In this document: one piece after another, positions 3,746 to 6,512 of the stretch | How the letters are laid out: every line of letters starts with the position of its first letter | How positions within the stretch are numbered: position 1 is the first letter of the stretch | Assembly: GCA_903868145.1 (NCBI GenBank) | Contig: CAIPTY010000100.1 | Location: 1-64,000, forward strand | Source: an uncultured Desulfuromonadales bacterium | GTDB taxonomy: Bacteria > Desulfobacterota > Desulfuromonadia > Geobacterales > Pseudopelobacteraceae | Direction of reading: 5' to 3' | Length of the DNA stretch: 64,000 nucleotides | The notes under the pieces: model-generated | Database searches by the model: none | Seen by the model: only the letters and a program-made list of their open reading frames with translations | What the model was told of the DNA's origin: nothing | Made by a program: the position numbers and the translations under genes

Positions 3746-5101
3746 CTACACCTGCGGACGTCTGCTGCGGTACTCTATCACCGGCTGATGTGCGGGCGCC
3801 CGGCTGGGTCGTGCTCCTGCTGCCGGTTTGGCAGTTGCCCCCCAGCTCTTGCCCTGGCCGGACGAAGCGGGCTTGCCCTTGTTGCCGCCCGGCTTTGCAA
3901 AACGGCTGCCGGGAGAATTTCCCGGTCGTTTTGACCCGTTACCCCCCGAAATACGCCGCAGCACCGACAGCGGCGCCAGTCCCTCGATGTTTTTTTCCGG
4001 CAGGCGTTTGCCGATGAAACGCTCAATCCGCTCCAGATAACTCAACTCCGACGATGACACAAAGGAAATGGCGATTCCGTTTGCCCCGGCGCGACCGGTG
4101 CGGCCGATGCGATGGACGTAGTCCTCCGCAAAACGGGGCAGGTCGAAGTTTATGACATGGCTGACACCATTCACATCCAGACCGCGGGCGGCCACATCGG
4201 TCGCCACCAGCAGCCGGATGGCACCACGGCGCATGCGTTCGATGGTTTTGTTACGGGCGATCTGGTTCATATCGCCATGCAGGGCAGCAGCCGGATAACC
4301 GTTGCGGCTCAGTTCGCGGGCCAGTTCATCAGCGTCGCGCTTGGTGGCAGAGAATATGATCGCCCTGGTCAGACTGGCGTCGCTGACCAGATGGCGCAGA
4401 AGCTCCTTTTTGTGGCTCAGGTTGTCGGCAACGTGCAGACGCTGCTCGATCAGGGCGTGGGACGACGTCCGCACCGCCAACTCGATCCGCTGCGGGTTGT
4501 TGAGCATCTTTTCGGCAAGACCCAGTACGGATTTCTCCATGGTGGCCGTGAACATAAGCGTCTGGCGCTCAGTCGGCGCCCGGGAGACGATCTTTTCCAT
4601 ATCCTCGCTGAAACCCATGTCCAGCATGCGGTCAGCTTCGTCCAGAACCAGCATCTCAAGGCGGTCAAGCCGTACGCTGCCGCGCTCCAGATGATCGAGC
4701 AGGCGACCGGGGGTTGCAACGATGATATCGACCGGAGCCGATAAAAGTCGCATCTGCTCGCGATAGGGCATGCCGCCCAGAATGGAGCCGCAACGGATCC
4801 TGACGCCGCGACCGTACTTGCAGGCGGCGTCCATGACCTGGCTTGCCAACTCCCGGGTCGGGGTCAGCACAAGGATACGCGGCCCTTTGCCGGGTACCTT
4901 CGAGGGGACGGTAAGTCGTTCCAGGGCGGGCAGCACAAAGGCAGCCGTCTTGCCGGTGCCGGTCTGGGCCGTGGCGATAAGGTCAGAGCCTGCCATTACG
5001 AGCGGGATGGCCTGTTCCTGAACAGGGGTGGGTGTTGTGTAGCCACAGGCGGTGATCGCCTTGAGAATGGCCGGGCTGAGGTTGAGCTCTTCAAACGTCA
5101 T
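3746..5101 (-). CDS. rhlE: DEAD-box ATP-dependent RNA helicase, RhlE type
   Basis: A 451-residue RNA helicase. Visible motifs are the Q motif (PTPVQEQAI), Walker A (AQTGTGKT), DEAD (VLDEADRMLDMG), TAT (FTATMEK), and motif VI HRIGRTGRAG in the second RecA domain. The C-terminal 90 residues are a Gly/Ser/Lys/Arg-rich unstructured tail typical of RhlE proteins. I chose the ATG at 5101 because AAAGGAAAAC lies just upstream; an in-frame ATG at 5119 and a longer form to 5140 lack one. A promoter and terminator-like hairpin in the long leader suggest attenuation control. Likely roles are ribosome assembly or cold-condition RNA remodelling (family knowledge). Confidence 0.9.
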   Translation of the reverse strand: MTFEELNLSPAILKAITACGYTTPTPVQEQAIPLVMAGSDLIATAQTGTGKTAAFVLPALERLTVPSKVPGKGPRILVLTPTRELASQVMDAACKYGRGVRIRCGSILGGMPYREQMRLLSAPVDIIVATPGRLLDHLERGSVRLDRLEMLVLDEADRMLDMGFSEDMEKIVSRAPTERQTLMFTATMEKSVLGLAEKMLNNPQRIELAVRTSSHALIEQRLHVADNLSHKKELLRHLVSDASLTRAIIFSATKRDADELARELSRNGYPAAALHGDMNQIARNKTIERMRRGAIRLLVATDVAARGLDVNGVSHVINFDLPRFAEDYVHRIGRTGRAGANGIAISFVSSSELSYLERIERFIGKRLPEKNIEGLAPLSVLRRISGGNGSKRPGNSPGSRFAKPGGNKGKPASSGQGKSWGATAKPAAGARPSRAPAHQPVIEYRSRRPQV

Positions 5102-5326
5102 ATTGTTTTCCTTTTTCATGCGGTGTCGGGGTTTGAGCACACACGGGCCGCGGGATCATACGACATGATCCGCTGGACAGAACGGCAGGAGGGCGTGGGC
5201 AAGGCTGCTTTATTATCTCGGTGCATTCCTGTGACCGGAATGACGACCGGATAAAAATCTTCGCCTGCCAAACGTTCTGCCGTGTTCAATGAAAGGGATT
5301 GAATCAGGGGGTCGGTAAGCGATGAT

Positions 5327-5358
5327 CAAAAAGAAAACGACGGACACCATGCCGTCGT
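5327..5358 (-). terminator. Terminator-like hairpin in the helicase leader (possible attenuator)
   Basis: On the minus strand ACGACGG (5358-5352) pairs with CCGTCGT (5343-5337) around an 8-base loop, and the second arm runs into TTTTCTTTTT. That is a classic intrinsic terminator. It lies about 15-45 bases after the predicted start of transcription and more than 220 bases before the helicase start codon, so readthrough would be needed for expression. Confidence 0.65.
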
Positions 5359-5378
5359 CTGTGTGACAGTCTTTCTCA

Positions 5379-5407
5379 TATATAGGGCTATTGAAGCGAA
5401 ATTGCAA
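5379..5407 (-). promoter_or_regulatory. Predicted sigma-70 promoter of the helicase gene
   Basis: TTGCAA at 5407-5402 and TATATA at 5384-5379 are separated by exactly 17 bases. Transcription would start near 5372. Confidence 0.65.
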
Positions 5408-5419
5408 GATATTTTTTCA

Positions 5420-5448
5420 TTGCCTCTTTATCTGAGGATTAGTATACT
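5420..5448 (+). promoter_or_regulatory. Predicted sigma-70 promoter of the SprA-like gene
   Basis: TTGCCT at 5420-5425 and TATACT at 5443-5448 are 17 bases apart, giving a leader of about 30 bases before the ATG at 5484. Its -35 box is only 12 bases from the -35 box of the divergent helicase promoter. Confidence 0.6.
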
Positions 5449-5483: not shown

Positions 5484-6512
5484 ATGGAACCGATTGGTTC
5501 GACAAATGGCAGCACTTCATCACCATCCCCCTCCGGCGTTGATGCGCTCCGCTCCCTGCCCGGCCGGCAACCCGGGCAGGGAGCAGCCTCGGGTGAGGTG
5601 TCTTCTGCTTCTGCCGCCCGGAAACAGCAGGATTCCGTCGTCGGCAAGCAGTTGGGTGTCCAGCGTTCCGCCGCATCCGGCGGGCAGGAATTCAAAGCCT
5701 ACGGCCCCGAAAGTCCGCAACGGGCGGATGCACCTCCGGGCGGTCCCCCGCCACCCAGGCCTGGTTCAGGTGATGCGACAACTCCGGTGGCTGACAAAAA
5801 GCAGGAAGACCCCCAGGTTCAACAGCAGGTGGCCCAGCTTAAATCCATCGAAGTGAAGGTGAAGGCCCATGAGGCGGCTCACAAGGCAGCCGGGGGCGCC
5901 ATGACCGGCTCCATATCCTACACCTATACGCGCGGCCCGGACGGTAAAAACTACGTTACCGGCGGTGAAGTGCCCATCACTGTTTCGCCCGGCAAGACCC
6001 CGCAGGAAACCATCTCCAGAATGCAGCAGGTCATCCAGGCTGCTCTGGCGCCCGCTGATCCCTCGCCCCAGGATCGCGCCGTAGCCGGTCAGGCGACACA
6101 GCAGTTGCAGAAGGCCCAACAGGAGCGCAGCAGCGCCGCTGCGTCGGATACCACCGATACATCTGGTTCTACTGGTTCTGCCGCAACCGATTCGAAGAGT
6201 GCCGGACAGACCTCCGGGGACTTATCCGGCACCCCTGTCGCCGACTCAGCCGCTGCGGGGCAACGCCGGTCACAGCGTGAGACCGGCGGGAACAGCGCCG
6301 TGGCTCAGGCAGCGCGAGCCTACAGCGATCCGACTGTCACCGGGACAGGATACCCTTCCCGAGATCTCCCGGTGCCGTCTGGTTTACAATCCCAGGCAGA
6401 TTCTTTTCTGACCGGATTTTCACCCCAGGATGCCCGCAAGGCCGCATCCGCCGTTTCACCGTCAATGATAACCGGCTTCGGCTCCTCACCGCAATTATCC
6501 CGGTATGCCTGA
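5484..6512 (+). CDS. Putative metalloprotease of the SprA-related (CJM1_0395) family
   Basis: A 342-residue protein with a compact conserved core at about 110-215 flanked by long Ser/Gly/Pro/Gln-rich stretches. The core carries a zinc-protease-like HEAAH motif (VKAHEAAHKAAGG, near residue 130) followed by GSISYTYTRGPDGKNYVTGGEVPI, which I recognise from the SprA-related family (putative metalloproteases). No signal peptide is evident. Enzymatic activity is inferred from the HExxH motif only. The last 8 bases overlap the start of the deacetylase gene, so the two are probably co-transcribed. Confidence 0.7.
   Translation: MEPIGSTNGSTSSPSPSGVDALRSLPGRQPGQGAASGEVSSASAARKQQDSVVGKQLGVQRSAASGGQEFKAYGPESPQRADAPPGGPPPPRPGSGDATTPVADKKQEDPQVQQQVAQLKSIEVKVKAHEAAHKAAGGAMTGSISYTYTRGPDGKNYVTGGEVPITVSPGKTPQETISRMQQVIQAALAPADPSPQDRAVAGQATQQLQKAQQERSSAAASDTTDTSGSTGSAATDSKSAGQTSGDLSGTPVADSAAAGQRRSQRETGGNSAVAQAARAYSDPTVTGTGYPSRDLPVPSGLQSQADSFLTGFSPQDARKAASAVSPSMITGFGSSPQLSRYA

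Follow-up and report, generated by a model that had tools for sequence, protein, structure and literature searches.

DEAD-box RNA helicases reshape many cellular RNAs, and to our knowledge how bacteria set the level of these enzymes is understood in only a few cases. The deaD gene of E. coli, which likewise codes for a DEAD-box RNA helicase, has a long and structured leader; it differs from the leader described here in that a covariance model of the core of the latter (R2, see below) found no match in the 9-kb region around deaD of E. coli K-12. Classical intrinsic-terminator attenuators have the same order of elements as the present locus, that is, a promoter, a terminator-like hairpin, and then the leader and the gene. 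Unlike in those attenuators, however, no mutually exclusive antiterminator upstream of or overlapping the hairpin was seen in the folds that were made, and its terminator-like character is not conserved beyond the lineage of the window (the whole stretch of DNA analysed, 64,000 nucleotides long). In Synechocystis, autoregulation of the RNA helicase gene crhR affects the half-life of both transcript and protein, and the accessible part of that report does not mention a leader RNA (PMC3485376); there, as may be the case here, an RNA helicase controls its own expression, a likeness of description. A survey of bacterial RNA motifs that covered a Geobacter genome counted 107 protein-binding candidates, and its accessible part gives two Geobacter motifs, yjbM and nifV (PMC11109978). 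Like the leader described here, those candidates are structured 5'-UTR motifs found before genes for nucleic-acid-binding proteins and taken as autoregulatory, but no DEAD-box helicase leader is named in the accessible part, though the supplementary alignments may list one.

A literature search that included the accessible parts of PMC8632094, PMC11109978, PMC6429828 and PMC2864571 returned no helicase leader of this kind. No Rfam 15 family reached its gathering score in the window or in the loci of 20 relatives, and a permissive Rfam scan of positions 5080-5440 gave two matches, with E values of 5.7 and 9.8. The leader may thus represent a new family within a kind of RNA already known, that of cis-acting structured leaders, and is possibly listed before in the supplement to PMC11109978.

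Promoter, leader and helicase gene

The sequence-only reading had described a promoter, a hairpin followed by a U-run and a long untranslated leader upstream of a helicase gene, and all of these lie at the positions claimed (minus strand, 5407-5328; start codon at 5101). The spacing is also as claimed: the U-run ends about 45 nt after the expected transcription start, and the start codon follows about 225 nt further on. The leader was followed in other genomes with two covariance models: R1, which covers hairpin H1 to strand A2, and R2, which covers the core formed by helices P1 and P2 and was built from more distant groups, without the window's group. The features of the site are as follows.

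5379-5407, minus strand: promoter, TTGCAA-N17-TATATA; read from the sequence; 50/52 leaders of the window's type have the pattern
5102-5372, minus strand: whole leader RNA, about 270 nt; alignment of relatives, R1 and R2 matches
5335-5360, minus strand: hairpin H1, loop CAUGGUGU, terminator-like in this lineage; scan, covarying arms (alignment A1), terminator-like in 41/52 leaders
5328-5337, minus strand: U-run UUUUCUUUUU on the 3' side of H1, in the window also complementary to the Shine-Dalgarno region; sequence and window fold
5312-5326, minus strand: strand A1, the 5' strand of helix P1, AUCAUCGCUUACCGA; duplex with strand A2, and covariation of P1 and P2 in more distant groups (alignment A3)
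5277-5307, minus strand: hairpin P2 (CUG..UUCAAU..AUUGAA..CAG); sequences, and four of five pairs changed on both sides in alignment A3
5256-5272, minus strand: strand A2, the 3' strand of P1, UUUGGCAGGCGAAGAUU; R2 match at 5324-5256 (24.5 bits, with the window's group outside the training set)
5198-5205, minus strand: strand A3, GCCUUGCC, a possible alternative partner of A2 (helix P3); window fold, and complement in sister groups
5142-5197, minus strand: domain P4, CACG..hairpin GGAUCAUG/UAUGAUCC..CGG..CGUG; covariation in alignment A6, reached by 0/500 shuffles (paired cells, covariation score)
5122-5126, minus strand: ACACC, 5' of the Shine-Dalgarno sequence and complementary to the H1 loop GGUGU; both present in 52/52 leaders of the window's type, ACACC in 0/91 others
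5109-5113, minus strand: Shine-Dalgarno sequence AAGGA; sequence
3746-5101, minus strand: DEAD-box RNA helicase gene, 451 aa, to which the leader belongs; Pfam DEAD and Helicase_C

From the promoter onwards the order, 5' to 3', is H1, A1 (AUCAUCGCUUACC in the window), P2, A2 (GGCAGGCGAAGAU), A3, P4, ACACC and the Shine-Dalgarno sequence. The promoter reads TTGCAA at 5407-5402, a 17-nt spacer and TATATA at 5384-5379, and the position of its -10 element places the expected transcription start near 5372. It is conserved: the pattern TTG[CA]..N16-18..TANNNT occurs at a near-constant position, with one outlier, in leaders of the window's type and in only 1-7% of shuffles; in three more distant groups it was found in 7/11, 7/12 and 0/19 leaders. 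(A class-level count of the -10 element, 4/49, was set aside because the pattern used was ill-suited.) To call this promoter strong, as had been done, was nonetheless generous, as it has 8 of 12 consensus matches and is absent from a scan at a threshold of 9. The promoter scan of the window found no minus-strand promoter-like site of at least 9/12 within the leader. Between the helicase gene and its divergent neighbour, overlapping promoter-like sites occur on both strands, at 5420-5448 (plus) and 5468-5441 (minus), with 9/12 matches each; judged by its sequence, the minus-strand site may give an earlier start for the helicase transcript.

The product of the gene is a DEAD-box helicase by the Pfam DEAD and Helicase_C domains, and of the 45 NCBIfam models that matched, each of the 25 listed stayed below its cut-off, the CsdA-, SrmB- and RhlE-type models among them. 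A match to the helicase was found in all 29 genomes searched (its own included), the best match per genome being 60-100% identical, and there were up to eleven helicase-like matches per genome. The list of open reading frames starts the protein at a GTG at 5140, but the relatives favour the ATG at 5101. The divergent neighbour (5484-6512, plus strand) belongs to the SprA-related family (Pfam PF12118). Since this gene stands beside the helicase in only 1/30 loci, the window's own (1.5 kb of flank per locus), the RNA goes with the helicase and not with the neighbour.

Distribution of the leader RNA

The sequence-only reading had proposed that leader hairpins be compared in relatives, and H1 proved to be conserved as part of a larger conserved RNA, the alignment showing that the upstream region is kept far beyond the hairpin. 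Within the order, R1 matched 64/141 genomes, with one match per genome except for one genome (G121) with two, even though a genome may contain up to eleven helicase-like matches, and R2 matched 66/141 at E values up to 0.001. Taken together, the two models matched 127/141 genomes at E values up to 0.001, with three genomes common to both lists, and left 14 without a match at that cut-off; in one of these 14 (G041) an R2 match at 0.003 has the helicase downstream. The window's own leader is the best R2 match in the 64 kb (24.5 bits, E 4.7e-5; the next match has 9.6 bits), and in a search of the whole genome it has an E value of 0.0027, above the 0.001 cut-off used for the order count. In the class, R2 matched 108/277 genomes at E values up to 0.01, in 43 of 82 genera, and in a sample of the phylum it matched 18/395, 10 of them outside the class.

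The leader belongs to the helicase gene, as had been claimed, and adjoins it in all but one of the matches examined. Outside the order, 36 of the 38 class-level matches were examined (G184 and G249 were left out), and all 36 have a helicase downstream, at least 54% identical to that of the window and starting 113 to 306 nt away. Gene context was inspected for part of the in-order matches; four further matches there lie, without exception, upstream of the helicase. Outside the class, 9/10 R2 matches are found just upstream of the helicase. The tenth (L255) is probably false, with no helicase in the 2.1 kb examined. A pattern scan of named genomes returned 69 stretches. H1, either usual or variant in form, occurs in 46, of which 42 show a helicase start, while the sequence available for the other four stops before such a start could appear. 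The remaining 23 stretches, with neither H1 nor a helicase start, were taken as chance. Named carriers include Pelotalea chapellei, Oryzomonas japonica and many Geobacteraceae assemblies. A leader of about 270 nt that forms a conserved, structured RNA and belongs to one DEAD-box helicase paralogue is well supported.

Two observations concern the gene itself. In one genome (G136, contig 64) the helicase match falls into three adjoining pieces just downstream of the RNA match, which suggests a sequencing error or a decaying gene. In two families of the order, helicase orthologues (L025, L026, L027, L140 and L141) have a different, common leader that contains UGCCCUGGCGGGC, possibly a second type of leader that, to judge from these sequences, travels with the gene. 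R2 found no match in these five leaders, nor in the others of the nine further sources to which they belong.

Helices of the leader

RNAalifold was applied to three groups (37, 11 and 19 leaders), and H1, P1 (A1 with A2) and P2 were found in all three, together with a hairpin at the place of P4. Alignment A3 (23 sequences, hand-chosen from three groups) is 94.5% paired in P1 and P2, and changes on both sides affect two pairs in P1 and four in P2, six in all; four of five measures were reached by 0/500 shuffles, and no slid register came near. Across the 36 sequences aligned at class level, P1 is nearly invariant (97% paired), and its covariation was not above that of shuffles on any measure. 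RNAalifold on alignment A5 (36 of 45 prepared references, nine near-duplicates or sequences with odd-length loops having been dropped) gave eight P1 pairs, none of them changed on both sides. No counts were taken from alignments A2 and A4, in which groups with helices of differing register had been mixed. Duplexes between and within groups fill this gap in the covariation of P1 in part. Within a group, the duplex of strands A1 and A2 has a mean of -11 to -16 kcal/mol, and it weakens to -7 to -9 kcal/mol when A1 comes from f3 or g22 and A2 from f1 or f2; in the window's own subgroup and in g2, A1 pairs with A2 of other groups at least as well as with its own.

Among nine hand-picked leaders, strand A2 is of three types, GGUUGGC, GGCAGGC and GGCUGGC, and its partners in A1 and A3 differ accordingly. 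Types II and III prefer their own A3 and type I does not, and the A1 strands of two leaders (L008 and L214) do not prefer their own A2. Tested without gaps, so that a bulged helix would be missed, the A2:A3 pairing (P3) was better than shuffles (p below 0.05) in 37/37 f1g7, 4/4 f2 and 14/19 g22 leaders, and elsewhere in 3/11 f3, 11/49 class/phylum, 1/12 g2 and 1/11 leaders of the window's own subgroup. In f1g7 and f2, therefore, A3 is a clear alternative partner of A2, and its pairing excludes P1; the fit of A3 to A2 is weak in the commonest type. In the minimum-energy fold of the window itself, A2 pairs with A3 and the U-run masks the Shine-Dalgarno sequence.

In the window, the Shine-Dalgarno element has an unpaired probability of 0.02 or less at 37 °C. 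Masking by the U-run was rejected as a general mechanism: group means were 0.28-0.37, against 0.26-0.45 when the leaders were shuffled outside the last 26 bases, and the probability of pairing between U-run and Shine-Dalgarno sequence averages 0.08-0.13 across groups. P4 is 95.9% paired in alignment A6 (32 of 37 prepared references, with 22 of the 37 f1g7 leaders taken); three measures were reached by 0/500 shuffles and the others by 8 and 335/500.

Two further pairings were considered. The H1 loop GGUGU and the ACACC motif are both invariant in 52/52 leaders of the window's type and are also present in both further leaders read, and within-group permutations of the 5' region against the region before the Shine-Dalgarno sequence were not significant (p 0.14 to 0.48). 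Invariant as they are, and without covariation, the two motifs suggest that H1 may have a second role in the full-length message. In class/phylum leaders (L206-L254), the 5' end is often GACUG and the stretch after P1 often GCCAGUC; CAGUC or CGGUC occurs near A3 in 18/19 of these leaders with GACUG, against 12/30 without it. This hints at a possible closing helix around H1 and P1. Permutations of the duplex between GACUG and the A3 region were not significant in the class/phylum leaders (p 0.35) or in the pooled set (0.40), pointed in the wrong direction in g22 (0.99) and f3 (0.95), and gave 0.73 and 0.12 in a second run.

Hairpin H1 and possible functions of the leader

The hairpin had been read as an intrinsic terminator. 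In the window alone it is no better than chance, as there are 4 terminator-like sites in 4 kb against 3.1 expected (sd 2.2) and its fold has a z score of -1.3, and because the isolated hairpin was not significant it was the comparison with relatives that had to decide. By that comparison the hairpin is real, since its arms covary and relatives conserve its terminator-like form. In alignment A1 (restricted to the 19 of 29 loci in which the H1 motif occurs) 98.5% of cells are paired, and the paired cells, the cells changed on both sides and the covariation score all beat 500 shuffles; the number of pairs changed on both sides was reached by 113/500 shuffles and that of further pair types by 500/500, and sliding the register by +3 hardly lowers the score (0.358 against 0.368). 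A survey of hairpins that takes paired matches only missed 37/143 leaders and was not used as a test. H1 is terminator-like in 41/52 leaders of the window's type (10/11 window-like, 27/37 f1g7 and 4/4 of a third group), against 5-7% of shuffles; one of the 11 window-like and 10 of the 37 f1g7 leaders keep H1 and yet do not score as terminator-like. In the other leaders the count is 8/91 (1/11, 0/12, 0/19 and, at class level, 7/49), against 0-7% of shuffles, the figure for the class level being 7%. As a sequence pattern, then, the putative terminator at H1 is real but lineage-specific.

What does such a leader do? A conserved structured RNA lies 5' of a gene for a nucleic-acid-binding protein and is kept with that gene across genomes, as in leaders regarded as autoregulatory. 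Because a structured leader on the gene of one RNA-remodelling enzyme is the usual sign of autogenous control, we infer such control here and retain autoregulation by the helicase, which the sequence-only reading had raised, as the most likely use of the leader, with binding of the protein as a presumed step. On balance, we favour the view that the site marks the 5' end of a structured leader RNA through which the helicase, by reading it, controls its own gene. The helicase as ligand, the direction of control and the step at which output is set are all putative. Free helicase would bind or remodel the leader, probably reading P1 or the choice between P1 and P3, and the fold that it leaves would set helicase output, either at the start of translation or by decay of the mRNA. 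A terminator-like H1 may, in the window's lineage, add some premature termination. A more specific version seems doubtful to us. In it, the new RNA family would report free helicase activity, with P1 as a built-in substrate; once P1 is opened, A2 would pair with A3 and helicase production would fall, and the terminator would have been grafted onto the 5' hairpin in the window's lineage. This switch is the less probable because in the window's own subgroup the complement between A2 and A3 is not above chance.

The main rival to autoregulation by the helicase, unlikely in our view but still to be reckoned with, is that the leader senses something else and controls the helicase gene as a small-molecule riboswitch, a temperature switch or a sensor of assembly state. 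The strands of P1 (CAUCGNUC..CUGACC and GGUUGGCGACGAUG) are conserved beyond what a plain duplex needs, and sister groups have two alternative partners of A2; against this, 49/50 inspected matches adjoin one gene, which codes for a nucleic-acid enzyme and not for a step of a metabolic pathway, and no Rfam family matches. Attenuation at H1, in which transcription would mostly end near +45 unless the helicase, a cold-shock protein or some other factor allowed read-through, had been proposed as a possible explanation of the site. We think it rather improbable, even though H1 and its U-run are terminator-like far above shuffles in most leaders of the window's type and the promoter stands at a near-constant distance. 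It leaves about 200 conserved downstream bases unexplained, 11/52 leaders within the type do not score as terminator-like, and a non-exhaustive look at the folds showed no antiterminator forming ahead of H1. The partners seen against H1 in folds and alignments are all downstream of it (the bases before H1 were not searched exhaustively), and because they are transcribed after H1, downstream strands presumably cannot decide termination there. Attenuation is thus not supported as the main explanation, since outside the type H1 is terminator-like in so few leaders while the remainder of the leader is kept throughout the class and also outside it; by the same comparison of leaders within and outside the type, it would be at most a lineage-specific addition.

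Two other readings fare worse. Conservation of the promoter together with the terminator-like hairpin in this lineage would suit a small RNA of about 45 nt made from that pair, or a processed fragment of the leader, acting in trans, but conservation of the downstream leader, and of its association with the helicase, reaches far beyond that of the terminator, which makes such an RNA improbable. It is even harder to believe in a leader peptide, encoded by the reading frame MVSVVFFLIIAYRP... that starts in the H1 loop (5350-5213, minus strand). In many leaders of the window's type its ATG and the codons next to it are open, yet the ATG is present in 42/52, the frame, open in the window, is broken in relatives, ranges from 7 to 73 codons and differs even between close relatives, and the arms of H1 covary as RNA. 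With neither start codon nor reading frame conserved, the peptide was rejected.

If autoregulation by the helicase is indeed the use of this leader, the RNA is likely to be a natural target for the helicase, and it would be a family to add to the RNA databases. It is attached to one helicase gene across the class, with matches to the model in further families of the phylum. It would also offer a simple way to ask, with a reporter, whether a helicase is able to gauge its free activity by unfolding its own message.
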